Assembly: GCF_024723255.1 (NCBI RefSeq) | Contig: NZ_JANIAC010000001.1 | Location: 263,548-327,547 of the forward strand | DNA from: Aestuariibaculum sp. M13 | GTDB lineage: Bacteria > Bacteroidota > Bacteroidia > Flavobacteriales > Flavobacteriaceae | Reading direction: 5' to 3' | DNA: 64,000 bases | Shown: positions 41,828-58,545 of the stretch, piece by piece | Numbering within the stretch: the first letter of the stretch is position 1 | How the letters are laid out: each line of letters starts with the position of its first letter | Notes under the pieces: generated by a model | What the model was told of the DNA's origin: nothing | The model's input: the letters and a program-made list of their open reading frames with translations, nothing else | Databases searched by the model: none | Made by a program: the position numbers and the translations under genes

Positions 41828-42988
41828 TTAAACAACTTTACGTAAAACCGGAGTTGCCTTCTGCTTTCTCTTATTTTTCTTCTTCAACTTATTAATCCAA
41901 ATTATTGTTCCTGTTACAGGTAGACTAGTACCTATTAAACAAGCCAAAAAGTATATTATCTTAGAAAATGTTCCGTAGATTTCTCCGGTATGAATAGGTC
42001 GTATTAAAGACGCTATTTGTATATTTAAAGGCTTCTCATCAAACCGTTCTACTTTTAATACGTCTCCTGAAACATCCATATATAATTTATCTGATGCGAC
42101 CGGAGACCAGTTGGCATCAGCTACTTTAGAAAATCGGTAATAGTTATTACGCTTATCTGGAAAACCAACGGAAAGCTCTCCGTCGTAGTTCAGGATTGTG
42201 TTGGCATTAGCAATAGCTTCATCAATAGTTACAGCTAACCCCTCATTATTTTCCGCTTTGTATTCAAATCCACCACGATCAAAAATCTTAGCTCCTATTA
42301 AATTGCCCAATCCTTCTCTATAACCTTCAAAAGACCAGCACAATCCTGTTATTGCCATAATAAGAATAAAAATACAGGAATAAAACCCTAAGGTATTATG
42401 CAAATCATGATTGATACGTTTCCAGTTCGCATCGGTTTTAATTTTAAACCCTTGTTTTATCTGTTTCCATTTTATTTTTTTAGGAAACCATAATACCAAC
42501 CCAGAAACCGATAATATTAAAAAGATAATGGTTGCAATGCCTACAATTGGACGGCCTATATTAATATCTAACAACAGCCATCTATGTAATTTAAACATGA
42601 CCATTAGAAAGTTGTCTGCTCCAGATTTTTCTACTTTATGAATTTCTGAAGTATAAGGGTTAACCAACACTTTCGAACCACGTCTTTCTTTCGAGTCTTT
42701 CTTTACTGAAAACTCATAAGGCTCATCTGAATCACTCGGAATTGTTAACCCAGTTACGAAACCCAAATTTGATGTTCGTAACGAACTTATAAGTTCTTCT
42801 ACAGAAACCCTATCTCCCTTCGGTTGAACCTTTATTGATGAAGAAAAAGCATCTTTAATCTCATGCTCAAATGCAAGAATTGTTCCACTAAAACACACAA
42901 AAAAAATAACAATTCCACTGGCTATTCCCAACCACAAGTGAATATCGTTAATTAACTTTCTAAAACTGTAGGTTCCTTTTTTTGACAT
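41828..42988 (-). CDS. PepSY-associated TM-helix protein (putative siderophore iron reductase)
   Basis: A 386-residue inner-membrane protein with about four membrane segments (HLWLGIASGIVIFFVCFSGTILA; IVGIATIIFLILSVSGLVLWF; TLGFYSCIFILIMAITGLCW; IIYFLACLIGTSLPVTGTIIW) and periplasmic PepSY parts between. Members of this family next to TonB-siderophore receptors are linked to reduction of imported ferric siderophores. Conserved His residues in NDIHLWLG, HRWLLLD, HDLHNTLG and RPIHTGEIYG are good heme or metal ligands. It follows the receptor gene by 71 bases and shares its iron-responsive-looking promoter. Confidence 0.9.
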   Translation of the reverse strand: MSKKGTYSFRKLINDIHLWLGIASGIVIFFVCFSGTILAFEHEIKDAFSSSIKVQPKGDRVSVEELISSLRTSNLGFVTGLTIPSDSDEPYEFSVKKDSKERRGSKVLVNPYTSEIHKVEKSGADNFLMVMFKLHRWLLLDINIGRPIVGIATIIFLILSVSGLVLWFPKKIKWKQIKQGFKIKTDANWKRINHDLHNTLGFYSCIFILIMAITGLCWSFEGYREGLGNLIGAKIFDRGGFEYKAENNEGLAVTIDEAIANANTILNYDGELSVGFPDKRNNYYRFSKVADANWSPVASDKLYMDVSGDVLKVERFDEKPLNIQIASLIRPIHTGEIYGTFSKIIYFLACLIGTSLPVTGTIIWINKLKKKNKRKQKATPVLRKVV

Positions 42989-43059: not shown

Positions 43060-45438
43060 TTAAAATGAATATGTTAACATACCTGCAAAATTTCTTGGAT
43101 CAGTTTGGTTAATATAACTCGTTCTATAGGCGTTATAACCAATTTCGTCAAAAATATTGTTTAGTATAAATCTGAAATTCCAATGGCGATTAAAGTTGTA
43201 TGCTACCTGAGCATTTACCTGTGTGTAAGCATCAACATTAAATGGCTCCTGGTTTGGTAGAATACCTTCGTGAGTAACAGCTCCTGAACTCCAATCATTA
43301 ACAGGTCTTTCACCAGTGTAATAAATTCCTGCTCCCAAAGATAAACCATCTAATTTCTTTTTAAACTTATAGTTTGCATAAGCATTAAAGGTATGCTTAG
43401 GTGTATTTAAAGGCGCCGAACCATAAACGTACGATGTGTGTTCCTTGTACTGCGCATCAATATAAGAATAACCGGTTATCACCTCTAAATTGTCTAATAT
43501 ATGCCCGCTAAGCTCAACCTCTACGCCTTTTCTTTCGTCGTTACCTCCTTTTTGATAATATCCGGTTGCTACCCAGTTTTCATCGTAAACCGGTAAATTA
43601 ATATCCTTGTTATTTATCTTAAAGAATGTAAAGTTGAAACGTAAACGGCTATCTAACCAATTGGTTTTTATCCCTGTTTCAAACTGATCGAAACGCTCAT
43701 TACCTAACTGATTTCCGTTAACATCTAAACGAGTTCCTGTTCTGGGGTAAGAACTGTTTGTGTAGGATACAAACAGATTTGCATTTTTAACTGGTGTAAA
43801 AATAGCACCAACTAAAGGATTTATAGCATCGCTCTCAGTTGTTTCGGTTGCTGCAATTGTTTGTGTTTTACTATAACGAAGCCCCAAGAAGGTTTTTACC
43901 CAATTATTAAAAGTAATAACATCTTGTGCTACAAAACCTAAAGCTCTTGATTTTGATCCTGCTAAACTAATACTTCCAAAGTTTAAGTTATCGGGTAACA
44001 CATGATTTACTGAAGTAAATACATCTATAGTATCTATTGTCGTTATACGCTGAGATTTTGTACTATACTTGGTTGTTCTATAATCGAATCCAACCTGAAA
44101 ACTATGAGAGACACTTCCTGTTTTTAATTCATCTCCTACTAAATCGAATTGCAAAACGCTATTGGCATCTTTTCTTGTAGAAACTGAATAACCACGTTTA
44201 CGTTGATTGTAAATGGGATCTCCAAATTCGTCATTTACCACGCTTCCTAAGCTTGCTCCTTTATCATCAAGATCTAAATCTGATTTAAAATAAGCAGCTT
44301 TCAACGTTAACTTTTCGGTTAATGCCCTGTCAAAACGCACAGAATATGTACTATTTGTAGTTAATGATTTATCGTTTGAATAACCTAAAAACTGATCATA
44401 TGGCAAATCGTAAATTGCATTGGTATCATTACCTGCTAAATTTACCGTTCCTAAATCCGGTGTTCTGCTATCATCCATATAATCCATTTCTAAAGTAATG
44501 GTCGATTTACTATCTACTTTCCATTGTAAAGATGGATTGATATAAAAACGATCAGAAGAAATGCCATCTCTAAAACCATCGGCACGTTCTAATGCCCCAT
44601 TAACTCTAAAGGCTACATTTTCCGTTTTTGCTAAAGGACCGTAAACATCGAAAGTTGTTCGGGCTTGTCCAAAACTACCAATACGTTGAGATACATTACC
44701 ACCAAAATAATATTTAGGCGTTTTGGTTACAATGTTTATAACACCACCCGGACTCCCTAAGTCGGTTGCAACCCCTTGTGTAATAGCCGCCGCTCCTTTT
44801 AATACCTGAATATTATCAACACCCTGCATATCTGTTAAAATTCCGGTTCCTCTAAAATCTGAATGTACACGCACCCCATTTTTTAATATTGGAATTCCTC
44901 TGAATCCACGAGAAGACATACTCTCTCTCTTGTTTCCGTAAGTTGCAAACGTGTATACCCCAGGCACATTTTTCGTAGCATCTGAAATGGTTAAATTTCC
45001 TTGTTGCGTAATTACTTTATCTGATATAATGGAAATACTCTGAATTTGCTCGTAAGGTTCCAATGGTAACCTTGTTAAGGCTTCAATTTTATCAGGGTGC
45101 TCGAATCGATTTCCAAAAAGTTCAATTTCTTCTAAATCTGAATCGGTCTCTAAAGTAATAGACAACTTTAAAGTTTGATTATCTTCTAACACTACAGTTT
45201 TAGTTGTTTGCTTATAGCCAACAAAACTAACTTTTATGGTATATGAGCCAGCCGAAAGGTTCTTAAATTCAAAAACACCAGCGTTGTCTGTAGAAGTTCC
45301 TGTATTTGTACCAGACAATAAAATATTAGCAAAAGCAACGGTATCCTTATTCGAATCAAATATTGTTCCTACTATTTTAGATTGTGAAAATGACATTTGT
45401 ACTGCCAAAATCAGAAATAAACTTAATTTATTAAACAT
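43060..45438 (-). CDS. TonB-dependent siderophore receptor
   Basis: A 792-residue outer-membrane receptor. Signal peptide MFNKLSLFLILAVQMSFSQ, then a carboxypeptidase-regulatory-like beta domain (residues about 20-105), a plug domain (SISIISDKVITQQGNLTISDATKNVPG, SRGFRGIPILKNGVRVHSDFRG, VLKGAAAITQGV, GSPGGVINIVTKTP) and a barrel ending in GMLTYSF. The plug resembles ferrichrome/ferric-siderophore receptors; the exact ligand is open. The PepSY reductase-like gene follows. Two operator-like palindromes bracket its promoter. Confidence 0.93.
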   Translation of the reverse strand: MFNKLSLFLILAVQMSFSQSKIVGTIFDSNKDTVAFANILLSGTNTGTSTDNAGVFEFKNLSAGSYTIKVSFVGYKQTTKTVVLEDNQTLKLSITLETDSDLEEIELFGNRFEHPDKIEALTRLPLEPYEQIQSISIISDKVITQQGNLTISDATKNVPGVYTFATYGNKRESMSSRGFRGIPILKNGVRVHSDFRGTGILTDMQGVDNIQVLKGAAAITQGVATDLGSPGGVINIVTKTPKYYFGGNVSQRIGSFGQARTTFDVYGPLAKTENVAFRVNGALERADGFRDGISSDRFYINPSLQWKVDSKSTITLEMDYMDDSRTPDLGTVNLAGNDTNAIYDLPYDQFLGYSNDKSLTTNSTYSVRFDRALTEKLTLKAAYFKSDLDLDDKGASLGSVVNDEFGDPIYNQRKRGYSVSTRKDANSVLQFDLVGDELKTGSVSHSFQVGFDYRTTKYSTKSQRITTIDTIDVFTSVNHVLPDNLNFGSISLAGSKSRALGFVAQDVITFNNWVKTFLGLRYSKTQTIAATETTESDAINPLVGAIFTPVKNANLFVSYTNSSYPRTGTRLDVNGNQLGNERFDQFETGIKTNWLDSRLRFNFTFFKINNKDINLPVYDENWVATGYYQKGGNDERKGVEVELSGHILDNLEVITGYSYIDAQYKEHTSYVYGSAPLNTPKHTFNAYANYKFKKKLDGLSLGAGIYYTGERPVNDWSSGAVTHEGILPNQEPFNVDAYTQVNAQVAYNFNRHWNFRFILNNIFDEIGYNAYRTSYINQTDPRNFAGMLTYSF

Positions 45439-45619: not shown

Positions 45620-47092
45620 CTATCTTGAGTAGTTAGGTGATTCTTTAGTGATTGTTACATCGTGTGGGTGACTTTCGTTAATACCACTTGCTGTAATTTT
45701 TACAAATTGACCTTTTTCTTTTAAAGTCTCGATATCTTTAGCCCCACAGTATCCCATACCTGCACGTAAACCACCTATAAATTGGTGAATACTTTCGTAT
45801 AAATCACCTTTGTAAGGTACACGTCCAACGATTCCTTCCGGAACTAATTTTTTTATATCGTCTTCTACATCCTGGAAATAACGGTCTTTACTACCTTCTT
45901 TCATAGCCTCTACAGACCCCATACCACGGTAAGACTTAAATTTACGTCCTTCGTAGATAATCGTTTCTCCCGGAGATTCTTTAGTACCTGCTAAAAGCGA
46001 TCCTAACATCACACAGTCTGCACCAGCAGCAATCGCCTTAGGAATATCTCCTGTATAACGAATACCACCATCTGCAATTACAGGAACTCCTGAACCTTTA
46101 ATAGCAGCAGCCACTTCTAATACCGCAGAAAACTGAGGGAAACCTACACCTGCTACAACACGTGTTGTACAGATAGAACCCGGACCAATACCAACTTTAA
46201 CTGCATCGGCACCAGCTTCTACTAAATACTTAGCAGCTTCTGCTGTAGCGATATTTCCAACGATAACATCTAACTTTGGAAACTTAGCTTTTACTTCTTT
46301 TAATACGTTAACCACACCTTGAGTATGTCCGTGTGCCGTATCAATAACAACAGCATCAACACCGGCATTAACTAAAGCTTCAGCTCTAACCACTGCATCA
46401 GCTGTCACTCCTAAAGCTGCAGCAACACGTAAACGACCAAACTCATCTTTATTAGCGATTGGCTTTTGCTTTAATTTAGTAATATCTCTAAAGGTGATTA
46501 AACCTGACAATTTATAATTGTCGTCTACAATAAGTAGTTTTTCAATTTTATGTTTTTGAAGAATAGTTTCGGCATCTTTTAAAGACGTTCCAACTGCAGC
46601 CGTTACCAAGTTCTCACTTGTCATAACTTCAACGATAGGACGTTTGTTATCGTGCTCGAAACGTAAATCACGGTTAGTAACGATACCTTTTAATGTACCT
46701 TCGTCATCAACGATTGGAATACCACCAATACCGTGTTCTGCCATGAATGATTTCGCATCTTTAACTTTAGCTGTAAGTGGTAAAGTAACAGGATCGATAA
46801 TCATACCGCTTTCTGCACGTTTAACACGTCTTACTTTTAAAGCCTGTGCTTCAATTGTCATGTTCTTATGTAACACACCAATACCACCCTCTTGCGCCAT
46901 AGCAATAGCCATTTTGCTTTCGGTAACCGTATCCATAGCTGCCGAAATAATTGGCACGTTTATGGTAATGTTTCTGGTAAATTTTGTTTGGATATTTACT
47001 TCGCGAGGAAGAACTTCTGAATAAGCCGGAACTAAAAGGACATCATCGTAGGTTAGTCCTTCTCCTACTATTTTATTTTGATGTGCGATCAT
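45620..47092 (-). CDS. guaB: Inosine-5'-monophosphate dehydrogenase
   Basis: NAD-dependent oxidation of IMP to XMP, the rate-limiting step of GMP synthesis. 490 residues from ATG 47092 ([20 protein letters not shown]), the standard length; the frame is open to 47128 but that part overlaps the likely promoter. Tandem CBS domains occupy residues about 95-215. The catalytic loop [13 protein letters not shown] carries the active Cys, and the flap GMGSVEAM and C-terminal [12 protein letters not shown] are normal. -7 box TATATTTG at 47118-47125. Confidence 0.97.
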
Positions 47093-47117
47093 GATGCAAT
47101 TACATTTTAATTGCGTG

Positions 47118-47125
47118 CAAATATA
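47118..47125 (-). promoter_or_regulatory. -7 promoter box of guaB
   Basis: Minus-strand TATATTTG, 25 bases before the ATG at 47092; no TTG at the standard distance. Confidence 0.5.
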
Positions 47126-47203
47126 CACATTTTTTAAGTTGATTCTGTATAATAATAAACTAAATTAATGTTAAGATTGGCTTTTGGTGTTAAATGGACA
47201 CGA

Positions 47204-47237
47204 AAACGTCCGATTACAAATTAGCAACCGGACGTTT
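47204..47237 (-). terminator. Hairpin after the outer-membrane barrel gene
   Basis: AAACGTCCG (47204-47212) and CGGACGTTT (47229-47237) form a perfect 9-bp stem with a 16-base loop, 10 bases past the stop. The T-run is short (TTTTC), so termination strength is uncertain. Confidence 0.6.
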
Positions 47238-47247
47238 AAATATCTAT

Positions 47248-50010
47248 TTATTGACGACGGTAACCGCCTCGACCGCCACCTCCGCCTGGTGGACTTCCTT
47301 CAACAACATTCATGGGTTGTCCGGCAAAGCTTCCGAATTTATACGTAAAATTAAGCATAAAATACTGCTCCAATATTTTATTCTCAACATCTTCGATATA
47401 AGTCTCCGTGACATTACGTCTGTATCCATTGTTCTTTCCTAAAACGTCGTACCCTACTAAAGTTACCGTTGCTTTATTATTCCAAAGCTCCATGCCTATT
47501 CCGGCATTCCAAAACACCGCATCACCGTCAAAAGCATCACCTACACGGCTGTTATAACGATAAGACACTTTGTTAGAAACAAACAGGTTTTTAATGATAA
47601 AGATGGATGAATCGAAATTCACGTTTTGTACAAAATAATCATTATCGTTAAAAGCATCTGTGTCATACACATTTTTAAATGCCGAATAACTGTATCGCGC
47701 ACTTAAATCTATTTTATTGTCATACGCATATCTGAACGATACCGACGGACTCAATCTTGTTGTTTGGCCGGTAAATTTAACACCATTCTGCATTGACAAA
47801 CTATTATTAAAACTTGCTGCAAATGCCCCATTAATATTAATATTTGTCTTTTTACTGTAAATAGATTTAGAAATCGACGCATTCCCGTCAACAGAATAAT
47901 CCCCGTTAATGTTGGTATAAGTCGTTAACTTATTTAAATCGCTGTCGGTTGTTGTTGAATTAATAATCTTATCCTGGGTGATTCCCGCATTGGCATTTCC
48001 TGAAATATTAATGTTATGAAACGCCAAATTGTTTTGATATCTAAATCGTAATCTGTGATCAATCTGTGGTTCTAAAAGTGGGTTACCCACACGAATATGT
48101 GTAATATTGCTTACATCTTCTACAGGTTGCAGCTGACTCATTGATGGCAAATTCACATTTTGATTATAATCTAAACTAATATTTTTATAACCATTTTGAT
48201 CGCGATAACGAATACGTCCTGAATAGGTCAAATATTGAAAATCGGCTTTAAAGTTACGTGCTTCCACAATTTGATCCCTATAACTTCTGTAGGTGGTTGT
48301 ATGTCCGGCTTCAACTTCAAAACGGAAATCGTTAAGGTTATATCTTAATTTTAATGCCGGTCTGATAGTCGTGGCAATATATTTACTATCACTACTTAAC
48401 AAGTCATTAAAACTATCATACGCCTGACTATCTTCATCAAAATCGTAAATATAGCGCTCACTACTTTGTGAATTTACACTTGCATTATAGCTTGGTATGA
48501 TTCTAAAATCTTCAAATAATTCGGCACTCCATTCGGCATCAATACCAATATTACTGCTATTACTGTCGTTATTACTTATTTGGTCTTGTATAACCGTTTC
48601 TCCTCTATTGTATAATATATTTTCTGAATACTTTTTACTGTCTGAAGACGACTTACTAAAATCGGTATTTAAACCAATATTGAAATAGTTTCCACCACCA
48701 CCTCTTACTGGCGTTACACGAAACTTATTACTAATATCGTAGTTTGATGAACTGGACGCGTTAGTACTTGTATAATCACTTACCAAATCGCCATTAGTAT
48801 ATTCTGAAGTACTCTGAGAGGTTGACCCAGAGTCGGTATTTGCAGTATTAAACGAGGTTTCATTGGAAATTTGAACTTTATTATTTGAAGCCTTATTTTT
48901 AGGTTCAACAATAAATTTAAGGTCTGAGCTTCCATTGTGTGAATCTGAATCGCTAAACCCACTGTTAGTAGATTCGGTTAAATAATTTAAATCTGGTAAA
49001 AAGGTTTCTCTGGTACTCTTACGTTCAGTATCCGAACTTTGGGCGCTATACCTGTAATTGGCATTAATACGGGTTTCATCCCATCTTCCCTTAGAAAAGT
49101 TAGCTCCAACAAAATCCGATTCTATGTACCCGTTACTGGTATCGGTATCTGGTAAGGCATTAAAACCTCGAGACATATTTATATTATTGGTTCCGGCGAT
49201 AATCCCTATTTGTTTACCATCAATCATTTGAAACAAATTGGCATTGGCCTGATACTTATCATCGGTTCCATAGCCTCCTTTAATGTCGCCAAAGGTTGCT
49301 CGATTCTGTCCCTTCTTAATTTTTAAATTGATTTCTTTAGTGCCAGAAGTCGATTCTTCACCGGTAAACTTTTGCATATCGGTTTTATAATCGGTCACCT
49401 GAACTTTACTTATGGCTTGACTCGGTATATTTTTTAAGGCTATATCACCACGCTTTTCACCAAAAAAGCGCATACCATCAACATTTACAGCCTCTACCTC
49501 TACACCATTTACCGTAATATTTCCATCGATATCTATATCGACACCTGGTAATTTCTTCAATAAATCTTCTGCCTTATCGTTTGGAAGTGTTTTAAAACTA
49601 TCGGCATTGTATTCAATTGTATCTTTTTTAATGACTACCGGCGGAGCCTTACCAACAATTGATACCACATTAAGCTCTTCAACCTGATCTGTTAAAGTTA
49701 CTACACCTAAATTCAGTTTATTTCCTTTAGGAACATCGATATCTTTCATGTAAGGTTTGTAACCTAGATATGCAATGTTGAAAATAGCTTTTTTATCGTC
49801 TTCAGCATTAACATTAATGGAAAATTCGCCATTTTTATTGGTAATACCATAAGCCATAGGAACACTATCCTTTATACTTTGAAGATATACGGTAGCGCCT
49901 TCTAAAACAGCAGCGTACTCATCTTTAACAATTCCTTCTAAAGTAAACTTTTGGGCAAAAAGAACCGAAGTGAAGCATAATGCTAAAACAAACAATAATT
50001 TTTTCAACAT
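47248..50010 (-). CDS. TonB-receptor-like outer-membrane beta-barrel protein with Gly/Arg tail
   Basis: A 920-residue exported protein (signal MLKKLLFVLALCFTSVLFAQ) with a carboxypeptidase-regulatory-like domain (residues about 22-110), a plug-like region (VVIKKDTIEYNADSFKTLPND, LLKKLPGVDIDIDGNITVNG, VEAVNVDGMRFFGEK) and a long barrel. The plug is of the type seen in OMP_b-brl/outer membrane beta-barrel family proteins rather than classical siderophore receptors. The C-terminus ends in a flexible SPPGGGGGRGGYRRQ tail instead of a final aromatic strand residue. Substrate unknown. It lies 89 bases after the FecA-like gene on the same strand, with no terminator visible between them. Confidence 0.88.
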   Translation of the reverse strand: MLKKLLFVLALCFTSVLFAQKFTLEGIVKDEYAAVLEGATVYLQSIKDSVPMAYGITNKNGEFSINVNAEDDKKAIFNIAYLGYKPYMKDIDVPKGNKLNLGVVTLTDQVEELNVVSIVGKAPPVVIKKDTIEYNADSFKTLPNDKAEDLLKKLPGVDIDIDGNITVNGVEVEAVNVDGMRFFGEKRGDIALKNIPSQAISKVQVTDYKTDMQKFTGEESTSGTKEINLKIKKGQNRATFGDIKGGYGTDDKYQANANLFQMIDGKQIGIIAGTNNINMSRGFNALPDTDTSNGYIESDFVGANFSKGRWDETRINANYRYSAQSSDTERKSTRETFLPDLNYLTESTNSGFSDSDSHNGSSDLKFIVEPKNKASNNKVQISNETSFNTANTDSGSTSQSTSEYTNGDLVSDYTSTNASSSSNYDISNKFRVTPVRGGGGNYFNIGLNTDFSKSSSDSKKYSENILYNRGETVIQDQISNNDSNSSNIGIDAEWSAELFEDFRIIPSYNASVNSQSSERYIYDFDEDSQAYDSFNDLLSSDSKYIATTIRPALKLRYNLNDFRFEVEAGHTTTYRSYRDQIVEARNFKADFQYLTYSGRIRYRDQNGYKNISLDYNQNVNLPSMSQLQPVEDVSNITHIRVGNPLLEPQIDHRLRFRYQNNLAFHNINISGNANAGITQDKIINSTTTDSDLNKLTTYTNINGDYSVDGNASISKSIYSKKTNININGAFAASFNNSLSMQNGVKFTGQTTRLSPSVSFRYAYDNKIDLSARYSYSAFKNVYDTDAFNDNDYFVQNVNFDSSIFIIKNLFVSNKVSYRYNSRVGDAFDGDAVFWNAGIGMELWNNKATVTLVGYDVLGKNNGYRRNVTETYIEDVENKILEQYFMLNFTYKFGSFAGQPMNVVEGSPPGGGGGRGGYRRQ

Positions 50011-50099
50011 ATTTATAGTTAGGTTAATGGTAGCTTAGACCTTACTTTATTTGTAAAGTTTAACCTAAGTATGTTAAAAAAAACCTAAGATTTCAAGCA
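50011..50099. other. Gap with repeated CCTAAG motif between two outer-membrane genes
   Basis: The 89 bases contain two direct copies of AACCTAAG (near 50063-50070 and 50086-50093) and an ACTTT / AAAGT inverted pair at about 50044-50059. No TAnnTTTG box on the minus strand and no terminator hairpin. Meaning unknown. Confidence 0.35.
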
Positions 50100-52523
50100 T
50101 TAAAACTTTATTTGAAGTGTTGTATACCAGTTTCTTGGTGCCGATGGAATGATACCTGGACCTGGATATCCTGTTGCTCGTCTTGTAAAATAAGCATTGT
50201 CTAAAACATTGTTTATTCCGGTTTCCAGTTTAAAGCATTTATAGGTATAAGCTAAAGATACATCTAACACATCGTAGCTAGGTATTTCACCAATCACACC
50301 ACTTATCCCTCCTTCTACAGAATTCGTTGCATCGGTAAATTGCTGTGATAAATAGGTATACTGAACGCTTGAAGACAAGTCTTTAAAGGCAAATTTTAAA
50401 CCAGTTTTTAAGTTCACATCCGGCACAAACTCCACTTTATTTCCTTCAACTCCGGTCGCTTCAGAAGATGTATATTCAGAATTTATAAAAGATGTATTAA
50501 TAAAATAATTAAAACTAAAATCGTTATTTAATCCTAACACTTGTTTCAGATTAAAATCGAAAAGCGATTCTACACCATACATCACGGCATCTCCAATATT
50601 ACCACGTTCGCTTTTTATTCCCTGACTGGTTTCAATTTGCTTAAACCCTATACGTCCGTTATAAAATAAGGCGAAAGTTCCCAAATCGTAAGACACAATA
50701 TTATTTAGGTTACCACGAATCCCTAAGTCGGTTGTAAATCCTTTTTCATCGGTGATGTCCGGATTTATTTCAAACGCAGGGTTATTAATATTAATATCAG
50801 AAAAAGTTACCGAACGGTAATTTTGCGAAATATTTCCATATACTTCCATACCATTAACAGGTTTATAACTCACTCCCAAACCTAATAACACAAAAGCACG
50901 GTCGAAATCCCTGTTATCATCAATAGTTTGGTCTAATATAACATTGCCCGCTGCATCTGTATTGATATTTCTGTAAAACCCTTCGCTTTGAGTTCTGATG
51001 TATTCGAAACGGAAACCTGGCGTTACCGAAAACTTATCGTTTAAATAGAAAATATTTTCTCCAAAAACCGAGACATTTAAATTAGGCAAGTCAAATTGTG
51101 ATTGATTTTGATAATCTGAAAACTCATCGTTATAAAAATTAAAATCAGCGTCACTTCCATTACTCCCTGCGCCTTGTTGCTGATAGTTATTCGCCTTATA
51201 GAATTTACTTCCAATTAAAAACGTTGCGTCCTTTTCACCAATATTATATTTACTTAATAAACGCGCTTCAAATCCGTAATTTTTAAAATCGCCTTTTATT
51301 AAATCTCGTTCCTCTCCAGAATCCACCTGATCCACACGGTTCGACCTAAAGCCTAACGCATCTCTGGACGCATTTAAACCATAAAAGTTAAAGGTAAAAT
51401 TGGTTTGTTCTGAAAACTTATGGTCGAATTTTAAATTATATAACAACCAATCTACCTGAAACCAATTACGCTCACGATTGCTTTGGTATGGATCAGAGGC
51501 AAACATATTATCGGTTAAACCACCGCCCTGCTGTGCCAGGTAACGCATATACGTTATATCTCCAGTGACTTTAGTTTTATCTGTAAACTGATACCCTAAA
51601 TGTGCAAAGGCATTTTTAGATTCAAATTCTGAATTTGGTCGGAATCCATCACCTTTTTTGTAGTTGAAATAACTGTAATAACTGAACTTATCTTTTGTTC
51701 CGCTAATGCTTGTAAAATTGGTATACAATCCGAAACTTCCCAAGGTATTTCTTGTAATTAATTCAAACGGTTTGTTCGGATTAGGCGCTTTCATTTTAAA
51801 GTTAATTAAACCTCCAAACTGCGTTCCGTACTGCAACGATGCCGCCCCACGAATCACCTGAATTTCCTTTAACCCTTCTGATGCCGGCGTATAATAACTT
51901 TCAGGATATCCCAAAACATCAGCACTAATGTCATACCCATTTTGGCGCGTATTGAAATTGGCCGTTCGGTTTGGATCTAATCCACGACCACCAACATTTA
52001 ACTGTAATCCCGCATCATCATTCTGATATATGTTTAGACCTGCAACCTGACTGAAAATCTGACGTGCATTATTAGATGCTAAATTCGCCATAGACTGATC
52101 TACCAAAACCACTTCCGTCTTCTTTCCGGCATAAATAGCCGTGCCTTCAACATCTTTTAAACGCGATAATTCGAAAAGTTTAGCTTTTCTCGCAGTGATT
52201 TCTACTTCAGAAAGATTAACCGAAATAGAAACTAACTCCACGTTTATTTCCGCGTCATTGGCTACAGCAACAGGTAGTTCTTTCACTTGAAATTCATAAG
52301 AAAAAAAGATTAAATCTAAATTCTGCTTATCGGTATTAAACTGGTAATACCCTGAAGCATTCGTAGTTGCTTTTAAGCCCGCAGTTTTATCGTAAATTTC
52401 AACGCCTGCAACCGGTTGTTTAGTTCCTGTATTGGTTACTGTTCCATAAATTTTGTGTTGTGCCTGTACTGCACTTACAAACAAAAACAACACTACTAAT
52501 AACTTAAAGTCCTTTAATTTCAT
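50100..52523 (-). CDS. TonB-dependent receptor, FecA-like (ferric citrate type)
   Basis: An 807-residue outer-membrane receptor. The start is at ATG 52523 (MKLKDFKLLVVLFLFVSAVQA, a clear signal peptide); the longer frame to 52595 lies inside the upstream gene. Then follow a carboxypeptidase-regulatory-like domain, a plug (QIFSQVAGLNIYQNDDAGLQLNVGGRGLDPNRTANFNTRQNGY, EIQVIRGAASLQYGTQFGGLINFK) and a barrel ending LQIKF. The NFNTRQNGYDISADVLGYPESYYTP segment is the FecA type. Its first 20 bases overlap the end of the HTTM gene, so the two are translationally coupled. Fourth gene of the DUF4856-imelysin-HTTM-receptor set. Confidence 0.92.
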   Translation of the reverse strand: MKLKDFKLLVVLFLFVSAVQAQHKIYGTVTNTGTKQPVAGVEIYDKTAGLKATTNASGYYQFNTDKQNLDLIFFSYEFQVKELPVAVANDAEINVELVSISVNLSEVEITARKAKLFELSRLKDVEGTAIYAGKKTEVVLVDQSMANLASNNARQIFSQVAGLNIYQNDDAGLQLNVGGRGLDPNRTANFNTRQNGYDISADVLGYPESYYTPASEGLKEIQVIRGAASLQYGTQFGGLINFKMKAPNPNKPFELITRNTLGSFGLYTNFTSISGTKDKFSYYSYFNYKKGDGFRPNSEFESKNAFAHLGYQFTDKTKVTGDITYMRYLAQQGGGLTDNMFASDPYQSNRERNWFQVDWLLYNLKFDHKFSEQTNFTFNFYGLNASRDALGFRSNRVDQVDSGEERDLIKGDFKNYGFEARLLSKYNIGEKDATFLIGSKFYKANNYQQQGAGSNGSDADFNFYNDEFSDYQNQSQFDLPNLNVSVFGENIFYLNDKFSVTPGFRFEYIRTQSEGFYRNINTDAAGNVILDQTIDDNRDFDRAFVLLGLGVSYKPVNGMEVYGNISQNYRSVTFSDININNPAFEINPDITDEKGFTTDLGIRGNLNNIVSYDLGTFALFYNGRIGFKQIETSQGIKSERGNIGDAVMYGVESLFDFNLKQVLGLNNDFSFNYFINTSFINSEYTSSEATGVEGNKVEFVPDVNLKTGLKFAFKDLSSSVQYTYLSQQFTDATNSVEGGISGVIGEIPSYDVLDVSLAYTYKCFKLETGINNVLDNAYFTRRATGYPGPGIIPSAPRNWYTTLQIKF

Positions 52524-53859
52524 TGGTAAATGGTAATATCCATGCCTTATGGCAGAATGATTCTTTTTCTTTATATAAATCGACGGTATTGTCAATAAAC
52601 GGTTTGCTCAACCTTCCGTTAAGCGCGACGTAACTTTCGACAAACACCTGTACATTTTTATGACCTTGCGATGTAAAATGATCCCCTAAATAATGAGCGT
52701 ATTCCAAAATAAAATCAGGCTGAAAACTCATTTGTTTTTCCTGAAAGGAACTCAGAAAATCACGGTTTCTAACTACAAAGGACGCTCCCGTTTTTGCATT
52801 TCTAATGGTAAACGTGGTATGCCCCATTTTTTCCATGAGCATCACGCGCCAGGAAAATCGATAACCTTCTTCGGTCCAGAACAATTCACCAGGATACAAT
52901 ATATATCGAAATGGAAATAGCAACTGAATGACAAAAAATACCGTTAAAAATGGCACCAGGACTTTTTCCTTTTTAACCTCTAAAACAGGCTTCAAATCTA
53001 CCGTAGTTTTAAGTTTTAAAACACCTTTTATAGTATTGATTATTTTATGATGAAAATCGGCTTCGAAGAAAATCAACGTCGACACAATCATAATAAACGG
53101 AAACATACCTATTGGAAACAACACCCTGGTAAATACATGGAAAAATACAACCAAAGCAAAAGCAAACCATCTTGTACGTTTATAAAGTAGTAAAAACGGA
53201 ATGGCTAAATCGTATAGCATACCACACCAACTCATGGCATAATGAAACCATTCCTGCTGCATGAGGTTTTCGCCTATAAATGGTAAGTCGTATTTTGATG
53301 GTAACCATATTTTTAACGGCATGGCTCGAAATAACCAATCGGAATTTATTTTTGCCAGCCCGGCATAAAAATACACGATTCCTAAAAACAGTTTCACACT
53401 ATCTACACACCATTTAGGAATGGCCTTATACGAGGTTTTTCTTAATAAATTATCAACTGAAAAGTAAGCATTAGCAGGTAAAAAAATCATTAAAAAACTC
53501 AGTAAACTAATAAAATAATAATGATTTAAATAGGTGGTTTTATCCATGAGTTCGATATAGGTAAAACTCAAAAAGAAAACTATAATCGCTATTCTGTACT
53601 TTAACCCCAGTGCAATAAAAAGGGCTGCCAAACCACAAATAACAAATAGTAAATAGGTATAATCTCCTAAAGGTTTTACCCACTCAAAACCATAATAGGA
53701 AAAATGAAATTTAGGTGTAATATAAAGCTTTTCAATCCAGCCATTAGCCCAAAAGCGAATAATACTAAACAGCATCATGATACCGAATAGTATTCTGAAC
53801 ACCGCTAAGGGTGCTGCGTCTGTTTTGCTTTGTAGATATGCTTTTGTATTAAACCCCAT
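52504..53859 (-). CDS. HTTM protein, vitamin-K-dependent gamma-carboxylase homologue
   Basis: A 451-residue polytopic membrane protein with an N-terminal multi-helix HTTM domain and a soluble C-terminal part. Two blocks match human gamma-glutamyl carboxylase: DKTTYLNHYYF (residues 106-116) against the DKTSWNNHSYL block with essential His160, and YFYAGLAKINSDW (163-175) against the AGVKKLDADW block with catalytic Lys218. The equivalent His113 and Lys170 are both kept. Vertebrate GGCX uses reduced vitamin K to carboxylate Glu to Gla; Bacteroidota make menaquinone, so the cofactor is available. Activity of this bacterial form is not established. It starts just after a hairpin terminator and overlaps the FecA-like gene by 20 bases. 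Confidence 0.88.
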   Translation of the reverse strand: MGFNTKAYLQSKTDAAPLAVFRILFGIMMLFSIIRFWANGWIEKLYITPKFHFSYYGFEWVKPLGDYTYLLFVICGLAALFIALGLKYRIAIIVFFLSFTYIELMDKTTYLNHYYFISLLSFLMIFLPANAYFSVDNLLRKTSYKAIPKWCVDSVKLFLGIVYFYAGLAKINSDWLFRAMPLKIWLPSKYDLPFIGENLMQQEWFHYAMSWCGMLYDLAIPFLLLYKRTRWFAFALVVFFHVFTRVLFPIGMFPFIMIVSTLIFFEADFHHKIINTIKGVLKLKTTVDLKPVLEVKKEKVLVPFLTVFFVIQLLFPFRYILYPGELFWTEEGYRFSWRVMLMEKMGHTTFTIRNAKTGASFVVRNRDFLSSFQEKQMSFQPDFILEYAHYLGDHFTSQGHKNVQVFVESYVALNGRLSKPFIDNTVDLYKEKESFCHKAWILPFTNEIKGL

Positions 53860-53869
53860 ATAAAAATGA

Positions 53870-53899
53870 AAAGATTCCCTAACGCATCAGGGAATCTTT
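53870..53899 (-). terminator. Terminator between imelysin and HTTM genes
   Basis: AAAGATTCCCT and AGGGAATCTTT form a perfect 11-bp stem with an 8-base loop; TTCATTTTTAT follows on the minus strand. It lies 10 bases before the HTTM start codon, so it would partly block or set the level of read-through into HTTM and the receptor. Confidence 0.8.
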
Positions 53900-53922
53900 A
53901 AATCATTTATTTTATTATCAAA

Positions 53923-55041
53923 CTAATCGCCATCAGCATCAATATAATCAACACTAATGTTCATAGCCTGTACCATATCTAATTTAAGTAACACCACGAC
54001 TTTTTGTAACTCGTCGTAAGACAAAGTCATTTTTGTATTATCGGTATTAACCTGATTAGAAAAATTAACATCTAATGCTTGAATTTGAGTACGAGCAGCA
54101 TTCATTTGATTATTGATTAAAGTAGTTAAATCTTCACCATCTGTAATGGTTTGTAAATAATCTAGATAATCATCGAAACTACTTCCATCTGTAGTTCCTT
54201 TGTAAGCTTTTCCGTTAAATATATCTTGACTAGCCTTTAAAGCTGCTAATGCCAACTCTTTAGAAACTTCCTGATTGTGGTAGGCTTCTACTTTCTCAGG
54301 ATACAAAACTCCAGCAGAAAAAATTCCGGCAGGAATTCCAAATTTGGTGGCTCTTAATCCCTTTTCGAAATAATAAATAAAATCGTTTGTTAATTTGTTT
54401 GTCGAACTGGTGGCTGTATTTCCTGTACTATTAACAAAAGTATCTCTGTAGGTGGATGTCCAATCGTTTAACACAGTTTCAGTTAACGACTTCATTTTAT
54501 CAACCAAATCACTTAAATACGTTTTATATCCGTTAGCATTTGTATTTATTGTATAAATCTCTAAAATAGCTGAATCATCAGAAGCAACACCGTATAATAA
54601 ATAATCTAACGCAGGAAAACCAACAGCATCCTGATTATTAGTATGAGTTAAATCGTAAGTACCACTTGCAATGTTTGCTTCTATTTCAGTAACACTGGCT
54701 GGATAGATATTCATTTGAGAACTATAATAGATTGCTTCAGCTTTACCAATGTTAAACATTTCAGCATATTGCCAAACTTTATAAGCTTCCAACCATGCTG
54801 TGCGCAGTGCCTCTAAATTGGTTTGATCTACAGTTGTTGTAAAGGTGTTTTTAGCTTCAGCCAAAACACTTAATTTACTATCTAAATCCTGATATACCGG
54901 AATAATAATATTATCAGCCCAGTTAACCAACATGGTTTGTCTATCAAAATTATCTGTCGGCTTACTTTCGCCACCGTCAGAGCTACTACACGCTATAATA
55001 ACGAGCGCTAAAAGGACTACAGAAACAACTTTTTTAATCAT
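53923..55041 (-). CDS. Imelysin (M75) family lipoprotein
   Basis: A 372-residue lipoprotein (lipobox ending Cys18, VIIACSSSDGGES). Imelysin-type features: an N-terminal helical repeat around RTAWLEAYKVWQYAEMFNIGKAEA, the domain signature AVGFPALDYLLYG near residue 145, and a second helical repeat with DYLDYLQT. M75 proteins are iron-regulated periplasmic or surface proteins related to EfeO and are thought to bind iron; proteolysis is doubtful. It lies between the DUF4856 and HTTM genes. A hairpin at 55081-55110 precedes it and a terminator follows. Confidence 0.92.
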   Translation of the reverse strand: MIKKVVSVVLLALVIIACSSSDGGESKPTDNFDRQTMLVNWADNIIIPVYQDLDSKLSVLAEAKNTFTTTVDQTNLEALRTAWLEAYKVWQYAEMFNIGKAEAIYYSSQMNIYPASVTEIEANIASGTYDLTHTNNQDAVGFPALDYLLYGVASDDSAILEIYTINTNANGYKTYLSDLVDKMKSLTETVLNDWTSTYRDTFVNSTGNTATSSTNKLTNDFIYYFEKGLRATKFGIPAGIFSAGVLYPEKVEAYHNQEVSKELALAALKASQDIFNGKAYKGTTDGSSFDDYLDYLQTITDGEDLTTLINNQMNAARTQIQALDVNFSNQVNTDNTKMTLSYDELQKVVVLLKLDMVQAMNISVDYIDADGD

Positions 55042-55080
55042 AACCTATTGTGTTCTTTAATATTTTGCAAATATCAACAA

Positions 55081-55110
55081 GCAGTTGGAATTATTAAAAA
55101 TTCCAACTGC
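55081..55110. repeat. Perfect 12-bp hairpin between DUF4856 and imelysin genes
   Basis: GCAGTTGGAATT (55081-55092) and AATTCCAACTGC (55099-55110) with a 6-base loop. On the minus strand no T-run follows, so it is more likely an RNA-stability or processing element inside the operon than a terminator. Confidence 0.6.
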
Positions 55111-55139
55111 TTTATTTTAGAAAAACTAATATTATTCGC

Positions 55140-56342
55140 TTAGTTAGCTGCCGCCTCAACTGTAAAGCCAAATGCTGCTGCTATCTCTGCTGAAATTGTA
55201 TCTAATGTTTCAGGAGTTACATCCCAAAATCCATTCGCATTATTGTTTAATAACGCATCAACATAAGCGTTAACTTCGTTATGTGTAAAATAAGGTGCAT
55301 CAGTACCAGGTTTTCTTGTAAACTGTAAACTGTAAACAAAACCAAATCCTTCAGATAACTCATGGAATGCATGTGCATAATCTACAGTCTCTGCTTCTAA
55401 ATCTGATTTAGCCCCTTGTAAATAATGTACGGCACGAACTGCAATCGCTTTAGAAATATTTTCTCTAATTACAGCTACCTGTGCATCTCTAACTCCATAC
55501 TCTCCTGCGACAATCGCTGCACGTCCTAATTTTAAAGCTTGATAAACTTCATCGGCAATACCCGCAAAATCAGCGTCATCATTTACTTGTCTTAGGTAAG
55601 TGTTTAGGAAACGGTCGGCATCTAAAACCGGACTTGCCGGGTCAACTTCAGCTCCGTATAAATATCCGTAAGCTTCATCCCATTTATGCTCCATTGTTGT
55701 ATAAGACTTACCCGCTTCAACAACACCACTATCATTATTAGCAACATTCGATCCTGCATCTAGTACCGCATCACTTAAATAGTTATTTAACATCTGGTCT
55801 GTCATTAAACCTCCTATTAAACCTTTAGCTACCGCCTGGTTTAATTCTAAACCTTTAGCATTAAAATAACGAACTGTAGTACTTCCTAATTGTTGTAAAT
55901 TTCCAGCTACACTAGCCTGAGCAGTAACACTCCAATTTACAAATACGACATCTGCCTGCTCGGAAATCCAAGAATCAAAATCTGTTTTAATTTCATTTGA
56001 AACTGTAGTATTTGCTGCGAAGAAATCGTTAGAAGCTGCTACTTTACTACGTACATTTTTATCTGAAGCATCTAAGTTATCATCCGAAAAATCGTCATTA
56101 CCTACTTCATGATTAAACATTGCTAATAGCTGTGCTTTTGTTTTAGTATTATCACTTAAAGCAGAAACCAATTCGGTTGCCATGGCTATTCTTGTGGTTT
56201 GGCCATTAAAATCAACTGTTGAAACTCCATTTCTAGTAAACGTATAAGTTGCCGGATTTTCTACATTGTTTGATTCATTATCATCTGAACACGATGTGAA
56301 TAGCACTGCCACTACGGCTGCCATCGATAAAAATTTTTTCAT
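55140..56342 (-). CDS. DUF4856 lipoprotein
   Basis: A 400-residue lipoprotein (lipobox ending Cys18, VLFTSCSDDNESNN). After an acidic linker, the body is mostly helical: LVSALSDNTKTKAQLLAMFNHE, KGLIGGLMTDQMLNNYLSD, YTTMEHKWDEAYGYLYG, VHYLQGAKSDLEAETVDYAHAFHELSEGFGF. I recognise this as the DUF4856 family, which repeatedly occurs next to imelysin in Bacteroidota. The HKWDEAYGY and HELSEGFGF motifs are good metal-ligand candidates. First gene of the iron set; its promoter is bracketed by two operator-like palindromes. Confidence 0.88.
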   Translation of the reverse strand: MKKFLSMAAVVAVLFTSCSDDNESNNVENPATYTFTRNGVSTVDFNGQTTRIAMATELVSALSDNTKTKAQLLAMFNHEVGNDDFSDDNLDASDKNVRSKVAASNDFFAANTTVSNEIKTDFDSWISEQADVVFVNWSVTAQASVAGNLQQLGSTTVRYFNAKGLELNQAVAKGLIGGLMTDQMLNNYLSDAVLDAGSNVANNDSGVVEAGKSYTTMEHKWDEAYGYLYGAEVDPASPVLDADRFLNTYLRQVNDDADFAGIADEVYQALKLGRAAIVAGEYGVRDAQVAVIRENISKAIAVRAVHYLQGAKSDLEAETVDYAHAFHELSEGFGFVYSLQFTRKPGTDAPYFTHNEVNAYVDALLNNNANGFWDVTPETLDTISAEIAAAFGFTVEAAAN

Positions 56343-56348
56343 TTTTTT

Positions 56349-56367
56349 ATTTAGACTTAGTATAAAT
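56349..56367. promoter_or_regulatory. Putative Fur-type operator, site A (downstream)
   Basis: ATTTAGACTTAGTATAAAT: a 19-bp palindrome in which 8 of 9 pairs match around a central T. It lies seven bases before the DUF4856 ATG and 13 bases from the -7 box. It is the best-formed of the four sites. Confidence 0.65.
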
Positions 56368-56380
56368 TAATTGACAGCAG

Positions 56381-56410
56381 CAAATTTAAAATACTAAATC
56401 AAATTAACAA
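56381..56410 (-). promoter_or_regulatory. Promoter of the DUF4856-imelysin operon
   Basis: Minus strand: TTG (56410-56408), exactly 19 bases, TAAATTTG (56388-56381). Same layout as the siderophore-receptor promoter at 45471-45500. Confidence 0.8.
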
Positions 56411-56415
56411 AGTTT

Positions 56416-56434
56416 ATTTAGATTAAAAATAAAT
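56416..56434. promoter_or_regulatory. Putative Fur-type operator, site B (upstream)
   Basis: ATTTAGATTAAAAATAAAT, 7 of 9 palindromic pairs, starting five bases upstream of the TTG, the same distance as site D. Confidence 0.58.
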
Positions 56435-56486
56435 AAAGTGATGTTTTCAAAAAAATCACCATATCTTTTAGAATCCTTTAAAGAAT

Positions 56487-57350
56487 TTAAAAGTATCTTT
56501 TAAATATTTTAGAAGCCACATTAAAAGCACTTTCAAAACTTAAAGCATTTAAATTGTTATTATGCTTAGAAGTAAAATAAGATAGTAATTTTTCGGTAGG
56601 CATATTCCCTATTAATTCATCCTTTGCCATGGGGCAACCACCAAATCCCTGAATAGCTCCGTCGAAACGTTTGCATCCGGCTTTATAGGCGGCATCAATT
56701 TTCTCGAACCAGGTTGAAGGCGTGGTATGCAAATGCGCCCCGAATTCAATATGTGAATATTTCGGAATTAACTCTGAAAATAAATAATTGATACTCTCCG
56801 GATTGGAGCTACCAATAGTATCACTTAAGGATAAAATTTTCACGCCCATTTTATGAAGACGTTCGGTCCACTCGCTTACTATATCAACATCCCAAGGATC
56901 TCCGTAAGGGTTACCAAATCCCATAGAAATATAAACAACGACTTCTTTATTGGTTTTATCGGCTATATTTAAAATTTCCTGAAGGGTCACTACTGACTGT
57001 GCAATGGTTTTATGCGTATTACGCATCTGGAAGTTCTCAGAAATAGAAAACGGATAACCTAAATAATCAATTTCTTTATGGGTACTGGCATCGCTTGCGC
57101 CTCGGGTATTCGCAATAATTGCCAGTAATTTACTAGTCGTTTTACTCAAATCTAATTGTGCCAAAACCTCAGCTGTGTCTGCCATTTGTGGAATAGCCTT
57201 AGGCGATACGAAGCTTCCGAAATCAATAGTATCATAGCCTACACGTAATAAAGACTGAATATATTGCACCTTTTTTTCGGTAGGAATAAAAGTCTTGATA
57301 CCTTGCATGGCATCACGCGGACATTCAATAATTTTTATCGGACTTGACAT
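56487..57350 (-). CDS. Hydroxymethylglutaryl-CoA lyase
   Basis: A 287-residue TIM-barrel enzyme of the HMGL-like family, splitting HMG-CoA to acetoacetate and acetyl-CoA, the last step of leucine degradation. IIECPRDAMQG holds the catalytic Arg-Asp, SLSDTIGSSNPE and FGAHLHTTP the metal His residues, and FDGAIQGFGGCPMAKDELIGNMPTE the signature Cys loop. It follows pyrD by 79 bases on the same strand. A weak GTGAT/ATCAC hairpin at about 56438-56459 may end the transcript. Confidence 0.92.
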   Translation of the reverse strand: MSSPIKIIECPRDAMQGIKTFIPTEKKVQYIQSLLRVGYDTIDFGSFVSPKAIPQMADTAEVLAQLDLSKTTSKLLAIIANTRGASDASTHKEIDYLGYPFSISENFQMRNTHKTIAQSVVTLQEILNIADKTNKEVVVYISMGFGNPYGDPWDVDIVSEWTERLHKMGVKILSLSDTIGSSNPESINYLFSELIPKYSHIEFGAHLHTTPSTWFEKIDAAYKAGCKRFDGAIQGFGGCPMAKDELIGNMPTEKLLSYFTSKHNNNLNALSFESAFNVASKIFKRYF

Positions 57351-57429
57351 TGATTTTTAAAGAATAAACTGAAGATAAAAATACTACAATTTTTGCATCA
57401 AAATTTAGAAAAGCAACAAGTAATTTGAT

Positions 57430-58464
57430 TTATTTCCCTTGAAGAATGGCTTTGTTAATCGACTTAACTAAACTCGGTCCTTCGTAAATAAATCCGGTAT
57501 ACACCTGAACTAAATCGGCTCCGGCTTCAATCTTTTCTAAAGCATCTTCGGCAGAATGAATACCTCCTACTCCAATAATTGGGAACGATTTATTACTCTT
57601 ATCTGCCAGGTATTTTATAGTTTTTGTACTCTTGGCTTTAATCGGCTGTCCACTTAAACCACCGTTACCAATTTCGGCTAACTGTTCTTTAGTCGCTTTA
57701 AGTCCGCTTCTATCGGTAGAGGTATTACTCGCTATTACCCCATCAAGTTTAGTATCTTGAACCAATTCTACAATTTCATCAAGCTGATTATTATTTAAAT
57801 CGGGAGCAATTTTTAAAAGAATCGGTTTTTGCTTTTCAAAATTCTTGTTGGCCTGTTGCACAGCGCCAATCAATTCTTCTAAATAATCTTTATCATTTAG
57901 CTTGGCATGGCTACCAACATTAGGGCAACTTACGTTCAACACAAAATAATCTACATACGGATGCAGCGCATTAAAACACTCTAAATAATCTTTTGTGTAA
58001 TCTTCTGGCTTCGTACTGGTATTTTTACCAATATTTCCACCAATAATTAACTGACCTTTATTTTTCTTTAATGCTTCAATTGCAGCTTCTAAGCCTTCAT
58101 TATTAAAGCCCATGCGATTAATAATTCCTTGATCGGCTTTTAAACGGAATAAACGGGTTTTCGGATTTCCTGGTTGTGTTTTGGGTGTCACGGTTCCAAT
58201 TTCAATAAAACCAAAACCAAAATTAGCTAGTTCGTTATACAACACAGCATTTTTATCGAAACCAGCGGCCAGTCCCACAGGGTTTTTAAACGTTAAACCA
58301 AACAAATTGCGCTCTAAACGTTTGTCGTTAACCACATATAAACTTCTAAATATAGTTTTGAAACCAGGTATTTTAGAGGTTATTTTTATTAATGAAAACG
58401 TAAAGTGATGGATCTTTTCCGGATCGAACGCGAAAAATATTGGGCGAAGTAGTAATTTATACAT
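57430..58464 (-). CDS. pyrD: Dihydroorotate dehydrogenase (quinone), class 2
   Basis: Membrane-associated FMN enzyme of pyrimidine synthesis using menaquinone. 344 residues from ATG 58464 ([21 protein letters not shown]), which gives the typical class 2 N-terminal membrane-binding helices; the frame is open to 58530 without support. FMN and active-site segments: [42 protein letters not shown] (catalytic Ser), [16 protein letters not shown] and [28 protein letters not shown]. -7 box TACTTTTG at 58479-58486. Confidence 0.96.
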
Positions 58465-58478
58465 CTCGATTATTTGTG

Positions 58479-58486
58479 CAAAAGTA
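58479..58486 (-). promoter_or_regulatory. -7 promoter box of pyrD
   Basis: Minus-strand TACTTTTG, 14 bases before the pyrD ATG; no TTG at the canonical distance. Confidence 0.5.
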
Positions 58487-58545
58487 CTCTTATTTCTTCT
58501 AAATAAAAAATCAGTAAATTCTAAAAGCAAAAAAATTATTAATCG

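Follow-up and report, generated by a model that had tools for sequence, protein, structure and literature searches.

The 64,000-nucleotide stretch of DNA analysed here, referred to as the window, comes from Aestuariibaculum sp. M13 (NCBI RefSeq assembly GCF_024723255.1, contig NZ_JANIAC010000001.1, positions 263,548 to 327,547), and its minus strand carries an operon in which a homologue of the vitamin K-dependent gamma-carboxylase (VKGC), represented in humans by GGCX, lies between an imelysin-like lipoprotein gene and a TonB-dependent receptor gene. GGCX is known for its role in clotting and bone proteins, and bacterial GGCX homologues have, to our knowledge, no established physiological role. 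The genes follow the order DUF4856-like lipoprotein, M75 lipoprotein, VKGC and TonB receptor, with the DUF4856 gene first, and the main features, in window coordinates, are the following:

56416..56434, minus strand: Fur-type box 2, ATTTATTTTTAATCTAAAT, whose start lies 92 bp before the DUF4856 ATG
56349..56367, minus strand: Fur-type box 1, ATTTATACTAAGTCTAAAT, whose start lies 25 bp before the same ATG
55140..56342, minus strand: DUF4856 lipoprotein, first gene of the operon, 400 amino acids, structure model with pLDDT 93
53923..55041, minus strand: M75/imelysin-like lipoprotein, 372 amino acids, with Cys18, GFPALD in place of the GxHxxE motif and a C-terminal DGD
52504..53859, minus strand: VKGC/GGCX-type gene with an ATG start, 451 amino acids, HTTM at residues 12-268 and VKGC lumenal domain at residues 298-446
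53521..53523, minus strand: codon of His113 (human His160), H in 122/122 homologues; the preceding codon is that of Asn112 (human Asn159), N in 122/122
53350..53352, minus strand: codon of Lys170 (human Lys218, the catalytic base), K in 122/122 homologues
50100..52523, minus strand: TonB-dependent receptor, siderophore/ferric-citrate-like, 807 amino acids from the ATG at 52523, overlapping the VKGC gene by 20 bp

An earlier note on this DNA had described the neighbours of VKGC as an M75 lipoprotein and a FecA-like receptor and had given the overlap with the receptor gene as 20 bases. The positions and the overlap are correct, but the FecA label is too strong, as the receptor scores 100.7 bits against NF041676, for which the cut-off is 1100 bits; it also stays below the TIGR01783 cut-off (129.2 versus 223.5 bits).

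The VKGC protein of the window belongs, beyond reasonable doubt, to the HTTM/VKGC (GGCX) family. In Pfam, it matches PF05090 (HTTM) with 275.1 bits and PF22777 (VKGC_lumenal_dom) with 201 bits, both against a cut-off of 27.7, and covers model positions 3-258 of 259 and 2-151 of 152, respectively. A phmmer search of PDB sequences up to E=1 returned eight GGCX chains, the best at E=4.4e-44, and one further match at E=0.2, the alignment spanning human GGCX residues 55-507 with 132 of 430 aligned residues identical, and a profile made from 56 VKGC relatives recovered the same eight chains at E-values of 5e-56 to 8e-56 (best 5.2e-56) over human residues 51-506. The segments DKTTYLNHYYF and YFYAGLAKINSDW, which the earlier note had read in the HTTM protein, are both present in the 451-residue open reading frame, and its pairing of His113 and Lys170 with human His160 and Lys218 was recovered by phmmer and by the profile; as a check of the numbering, 48/48 human GGCX residues looked up carried the expected letter. 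The AlphaFold2 model of the protein (pLDDT 80.5, pTM 0.82) gave 16 Foldseek matches in the PDB at E<=0.001, all of them GGCX cryo-EM structures, with a best TM of 0.80; the alignments behind the structure models used 56 of 81 VKGC sequences and 54 of 79 DUF4856 sequences. Superposition on GGCX agrees for the fold, and the placement of His113 and Lys170 in the pocket is predicted from the alignment, the model being of low confidence at residues 108-112, 318-331 and 333-345.

The roles of the human residues are taken from the available part of PMC12589487, in which Lys218 is the base and His160, Asn159 and Tyr395 surround the substrate Glu, with His160 also lining the quinone pocket. In the same source the quinone ring pocket is formed by Phe286, Phe294, Phe299, Val210 and Trp223 and the tail tunnel by Ala214, Gly259, Gly258, Val254, Val255 and Asn290, Asn158 and Arg436 are associated with the backbone of the Gla (gamma-carboxyglutamate) domain, Lys217 to coupling, and Tyr425 to the propeptide exosite. 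In the alignment, the window VKGC retains Tyr395 as Tyr333, the equivalents of the ring-pocket residues Phe286, Phe294, Phe299, Val210 and Trp223, the equivalent of Met402, and Ala214 and Gly259 of the tail tunnel, of which the other four residues out of six (Gly258, Val254, Val255 and Asn290) are changed. Of the five residues of the Glu pocket, N159, H160 and Y395 are present and N158 and R436 are replaced. The place of Leu394 is taken by Gly, the C99-C450 disulphide is absent, with Phe and Tyr at those places, and the Cap network keeps Asp222, Thr391, Ser398 and Arg476 and is changed at Asp220, His404, Glu230, Ser251 and Tyr379. Across 122 VKGC homologues, 105 from operons and 17 from elsewhere, Asn112, His113, Lys170, Trp175, Phe240 and Phe253 (human N159, H160, K218, W223, F286 and F299) are invariant. 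Judged from the aligned residues, vitamin K oxygenase chemistry is probably retained in VKGC.

The operon is conserved well beyond the window. With the VKGC protein as the only query, at least 587 loci were confirmed; the 80 examined are the best of these, hence close relatives (81 when the window locus, L001, is counted), and belong to flavobacterial genera, Flavobacteriaceae, or Bacteroidia/Bacteroidetes metagenome-assembled genomes. In all 80, VKGC follows M75 and precedes a TonB receptor on one strand, and 78 have DUF4856; in L058, one gene of 604 amino acids lies between M75 and VKGC. A wider sample was a draw of 296 Bacteroidota genomes, where profile matches place VKGC in 69 genomes, M75 in 71 and DUF4856 in 50, with VKGC and M75 together in 62, VKGC only in 7, M75 only in 9 and neither in 218 (Fisher p=1e-45, uncorrected for relatedness). 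The earlier note had proposed a survey of this co-occurrence across Bacteroidota. By automatic assignment, M75 lies within 6 kb of VKGC on the same strand for 60 of the 79 VKGC matches, which come from 34 genera in 15 families for these 60, and 46 of the 60 also have DUF4856; in each of the 60, the nearest M75 domain ends 952-1256 bp before the lumenal-domain match, with the HTTM part between. Reading two further loci, L175 (DUF4856-VKGC-receptor, M75 not adjacent) and L176 (M75 interrupted by the contig end), raises the operon VKGCs to 62/79, and 47 of the 52 DUF4856 matches in this sample are linked to VKGC. When 105 operons, 80 close and 25 distant, were read as sequence, a DUF4856-like gene was found in 99, a count that rests on a custom iterated hidden Markov model (of three diverged members run against Pfam, L128 and L130 give no score and L129 gives 26.5 bits), and a receptor in 102, the other three being L047, with the receptor cut at the contig end, L151, where the contig ends, and L153, with other genes there. 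This set excludes L175 and L176, as well as L144 (G030) and L147 (G179), in which a simple open-reading-frame caller missed genes although profile matches place DUF4856, M75 and VKGC together; the lone VKGC sites G234:C1, G084:C8 and G235 lie outside the sequences read. A DUF4856 gene with a TonB receptor, and with neither VKGC nor M75 adjoining, was seen at positions 5203-9079 of L169.

In a tree that sampled 38 of 106 operon VKGC sequences, all 38 fall in one clade with support 100/100, together with one displaced gene (L124), and 16 of the 17 non-operon VKGCs fall outside it. A di-haem oxidoreductase (DHOR) accompanies some of the related loci: the window genome and three others show the order imelysin-DHOR (L171-L174), with no VKGC in those loci, and in three of them M75 comes next, recognised by the operon M75 profile. 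Imelysin, DHOR, M75 and VKGC are combined in L149 and L153, which read M75-DHOR-M75-VKGC on one strand and are, within the stretch covered per locus, the only 2/105 VKGC operons with DHOR on the same strand; on the opposite strand, DHOR lies nearby in 9/80 close loci. In the tree, these two loci and L133 form the earliest-diverging group among the operon VKGCs (91/66, not starred); judging from these few loci, VKGC may have joined, and then partly replaced, a di-haem module. A second flavobacterial VKGC group (L112-L119) lies directly downstream of a ribF-type gene, in the same BLAST cluster in all 8 loci and identified by Pfam in L112 as FAD synthetase/riboflavin kinase, and is followed in 6 loci by seryl-tRNA synthetase (assigned by Pfam in L112 and by cluster membership in the rest). 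A lone alphaproteobacterial VKGC homologue was found on plasmid p1 of Paracoccus albus (L152), with no imelysin annotated beside it.

The sequence upstream of the operon points to iron control. A k-mer search identified a conserved box, TCTAAATAA, upstream of DUF4856 in 76 of 77 target regions versus 62 of 904 control upstream regions; two forward boxes are present in 50/77, with a spacing of 72-73 bp in 33 of those 50. The published Fur box of Riemerella is ATTTAGAATTATTCTAAAT, the abstract of the same paper printing another sequence, GATAATGATAATCATTATC (PMC5609570, available part), and at 15 or more of 19 positions it is matched in 77/77 close upstream regions, which are not independent because the loci are relatives, versus 37/910 control regions. 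The same threshold is reached in 19/25 distant operons, for which there is no control set, and the two window sites score 15-16 of 19 against this Riemerella consensus. A 13-base pattern, TWARTCTAAATAA, has 11 exact sites in the genome and its reversed control also has 11, so only the placement of the sites is informative. Four of the 11 sites lie inside open frames (L161, L162, L163 and L166) and seven outside: two precede the VKGC operon, one precedes a siderophore receptor above the TIGR01783 cut-off that is followed by a PepSY_TM protein, one precedes another TonB receptor, one precedes a canonical imelysin that is followed by a di-haem oxidoreductase, and two, L165 and L160 (with a small lipoprotein gene some 420 bp away), stand before no known iron gene. 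In L165, near position 1501, the box lies between divergent genes for a membrane protein and ribosomal protein L31, upstream of L31. As two DtxR-type C-terminal domains are encoded in the genome, DtxR was considered as a candidate regulator, but it was set aside in favour of Fur as the putative regulator, given the agreement of the box with the Fur box published for Riemerella. Other genes in the window are:

47248..50010, minus strand: OMP_b-brl_3 protein downstream of the receptor, found in 12/81 loci and so no conserved part of the operon
43060..45438, minus strand: TonB-dependent siderophore receptor, over the TIGR01783 cut-off at 250 bits and preceded by a box of the same type, a possible regulon neighbour outside the operon
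41828..42988, minus strand: PepSY_TM protein downstream of the siderophore receptor, likewise a possible regulon neighbour outside the operon

An Rfam scan of positions 47000-58700 gave nothing at the gathering score.

Published expression data agree with iron control. Table 4 of PMC5609570, an RNA-seq study of Riemerella anatipestifer available in part, lists RAYM_09779 (TonB-dependent receptor), RAYM_09784 (Vitamin K-dependent gamma-carboxylase), RAYM_09789 (Imelysin) and RAYM_09794 (hypothetical), a gene set like that of the window by printed annotation only and raised in low iron, with wild-type -Fe/+Fe ratios of 2.11, 2.64, 3.07 and 2.41 on a scale not stated in that section. The fur mutant to wild-type ratios at +Fe are 1.90, 1.39, 1.93 and 1.36 and the set is listed as Fur-regulated, but it still responds to iron when fur is deleted (2.70, 2.77, 2.92 and 3.07), so that Fur may not be its only regulator. 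An iron response of the four-gene set, identified by annotation, is thus on record for one relative. In the literature covered, which was partial, no interpretation of the VKGC operon was found, the carboxylase being a mere table row in the available part of PMC5609570, and no match joined HTTM with imelysin or the HTTM domain with iron; another Riemerella iron study names neither carboxylase nor imelysin in the available main text (PMC5429918). Mutation of an iron regulator in Bizionia argentinensis, to which L006 belongs, lowers a TonB receptor and an imelysin-like gene that is possibly the one of the operon (PMC9478572, available part). Outer-membrane vesicles of Tenacibaculum maritimum are rich in a FecA homologue with which four imelysin-like lipoproteins are associated, a set comparable by description (PMC10288586, available part). 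The conserved operon, the Fur-type boxes and the published response of the like-annotated gene set sustain the tie to iron uptake that the earlier note had drawn, and the VKGC operon almost certainly serves iron uptake.

Several known systems share parts of this arrangement. Human GGCX (PDB 9bvk, 9l6q, 9wfc and others) has in common with the window VKGC the fold (TM 0.80), the HTTM and lumenal domains, Lys218, His160, Asn159, Tyr395 and most of the ring pocket, whereas the window VKGC lacks the arch or propeptide-binding region after 507 and the disulphide, lies in an iron operon and has no VKOR partner. A VKGC homologue, likewise a bacterial homologue of GGCX, exists in Leptospira (PMC4555120, available part). 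Among the imelysin iron loci (ICMP/PA4370-4373 and EfeUOB; PMC3143127, available part), IPPA likewise has Pro at the place of the motif His, as M75 does, and the imelysin loci L171-L174 carry upstream of imelysin the same nine-base box as the VKGC operon; in contrast to the imelysin iron loci, the VKGC operons have VKGC added, DUF4856-like genes in 99/105 and same-strand DHOR only in L149 and L153.

As for possible substrates, both lipoproteins carry Cys at position 18 (105/106 and 100/100 sequences), usually followed by acidic residues, a pattern that would fit lipoprotein export to the surface. Glu makes up 4.2% of M75 in close and 5.0% in distant relatives, with Asp at 8.7% in close relatives, and DUF4856 has 5.8% Glu and 8.1% Asp in close relatives. 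The only invariant Glu residues of M75 are E226 and E252 (105/105 operon members, in an alignment that leaves out L127), and with K233 they align with the pocket residues Glu111, Glu137 and Lys116 of PIBO, the imelysin of Bacteroides ovatus (PDB 3n8u), under a numbering offset of 23 set here from His368/Glu371 as named in the available part of PMC3143127; PDB 3pf0 has Glu opposite E226 and none opposite E252. A Bacteroides ihuae control genome had no PF22777 match, in a search that covered B. ihuae and not B. ovatus. In the M75 homologues not beside VKGC (L171, L173 and L174), E252 is present in 3/3 and E226 in 2/3, but these are weak controls because their genomes (G108, G187 and G182) carry VKGC elsewhere. 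The GxHxxE motif is not kept, the 105 operon M75 proteins having G in 105, P at the His place in 89, and D in 92 or E in 13 at the Glu place; the C-terminal DGD is found in 105/105 operon members, and also in PDB 3pf0 and in three M75 homologues that have no adjoining VKGC. The Glu/Asp-rich surface of M75 or DUF4856, proposed earlier as the nearest substrate, is thus not borne out: neither lipoprotein is Glu-rich, M75 in particular holds little Glu, and the two Glu that M75 keeps throughout align with the pocket of an ordinary imelysin. In DUF4856, E331 and H327 are present in 99/99 operon members and in 2/4 and 1/4 homologues from genomes without a VKGC match, respectively. The DUF4856 model (pLDDT 93, pTM 0.90) has no fold match among PDB structures at E<=0.001 and possibly represents a fold lacking a solved relative; neither this result nor the score of 31.8 bits against NF038033 (FEA1-related lipoprotein), with its cut-off of 250, supports an imelysin or FEA1 fold. 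The invariant Glu of the receptor (E137, E208, E507 and E698) align with no Glu in three other receptors, a comparison that says little because those are only 18-22% identical. The conservation tests therefore single out no residue as a site of Gla. The receptor is at least as good a candidate because it is nearly constant, whereas either lipoprotein can be absent from the side of VKGC (DUF4856 in L126, M75 in L175).

The clade of VKGC has its genes in an operon of Bacteroidota that serves iron uptake at the outer membrane and responds to iron. VKGC would most likely be an inner-membrane enzyme whose active site is turned toward the periplasm, as that of GGCX faces the lumen of the endoplasmic reticulum, and would draw menaquinol from the respiratory pool; MenD, scoring 366 bits with neighbours in frame included against a cut-off of 244, suggests that the host synthesises menaquinone, in agreement with the expectation of the earlier note. 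With O2 and CO2, it would then carboxylate Glu of a protein of the same operon, the TonB receptor or either lipoprotein, en route to the outer membrane, and the Gla would create or tune an iron-binding carboxylate site. This menaquinol-dependent carboxylation of an exported operon protein in the service of iron uptake is given a probability of roughly 0.4; that it forms a dedicated system widespread in Bacteroidota, with Gla as iron ligand on surface proteins and neither propeptide exosite nor VKOR, is a tentative proposal. A number of observations weigh against carboxylation of a protein. The window VKGC has Ala for Lys217, Leu for Asn158, Gln for Arg436 and Val for Met401, the exosite residue Tyr425 is replaced by Val, and all that follows human residue 507, the arch included, is absent because the sequence stops there. 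The place of Tyr333 (human Tyr395) holds Tyr in 81/105 and Phe in 24/105 operon VKGCs, and His in 16/17 non-operon VKGCs. VKOR, the vitamin K recycler of animals, has no match in the window genome, and among the 296 genomes it occurs in 16/69 with VKGC versus 56/227 others (p=0.87, no co-occurrence), on which grounds a classical vitamin K cycle via VKOR is rejected. No lipoprotein Glu could be traced to VKGC dependence by conservation over the 80 close and 25 distant operons. Lastly, the VKGC homologue of Leptospira is said to epoxidise without carboxylating.

That report favours the main rival, rather unlikely in itself, according to which VKGC is an oxygenase/epoxidase only: menaquinol would be oxidised with O2, nothing would be carboxylated, and the operon would be served by redox or O2 chemistry, VKGC perhaps taking the place of DHOR, the redox gene of the four VKGC-less imelysin loci. 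Consistent with it are DHOR after imelysin in L171-L174, the same-strand DHOR of L149 and L153 in the early-parting group with L133, and the loss of the propeptide exosite. However, DHOR and VKGC coexist in two operons, the VKGC-less DHOR loci read number only four, and the substrate-Glu contacts Asn159 and His160 are invariant in 122/122 homologues, an invariance that is not decisive because His160 also lines the quinone pocket (PMC12589487, available part). The absent exosite would also be accounted for if a small molecule, a ligand or an iron chelator precursor, were carboxylated instead of a protein; the end of VKGC at the equivalent of human 507 and the failure to find a VKGC-dependent lipoprotein Glu fit this improbable alternative, but no additional constant neighbour gene was seen in the distant operons read, where neighbours were not annotated individually. 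A menaquinol-dependent ferric reductase on the GGCX scaffold would suit the iron operon and the mostly retained quinone ring pocket, yet the Pfam matches comprise only HTTM and VKGC-lumenal, neither haem, Fe-S nor flavin domain, and the invariant Glu-binding Asn and His would be left unexplained, which makes it quite improbable. The constant place beside the receptor (102/105) could suggest a non-catalytic membrane scaffold or assembly factor for the receptor and lipoproteins, but the catalytic Lys, His and Asn and two pocket Phe, all present in 122/122, make this very unlikely. Chance neighbourhood has a negligible probability and is ruled out by the same strand and order in 60 matches from 15 families (with the Fisher value given above) and by M75 and receptor in 80/80 close loci.

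The four-gene context and the iron-type operators across Bacteroidota families pinpoint where bacterial Gla or quinol-epoxidase chemistry can be sought, and three candidate protein substrates are encoded beside VKGC. Either chemistry would show a role of VKGC outside animals and a use of quinol in iron uptake. If the dedicated carboxylation system proposed above is real, iron acquisition would be a major non-animal role of the family that drives vertebrate blood clotting.

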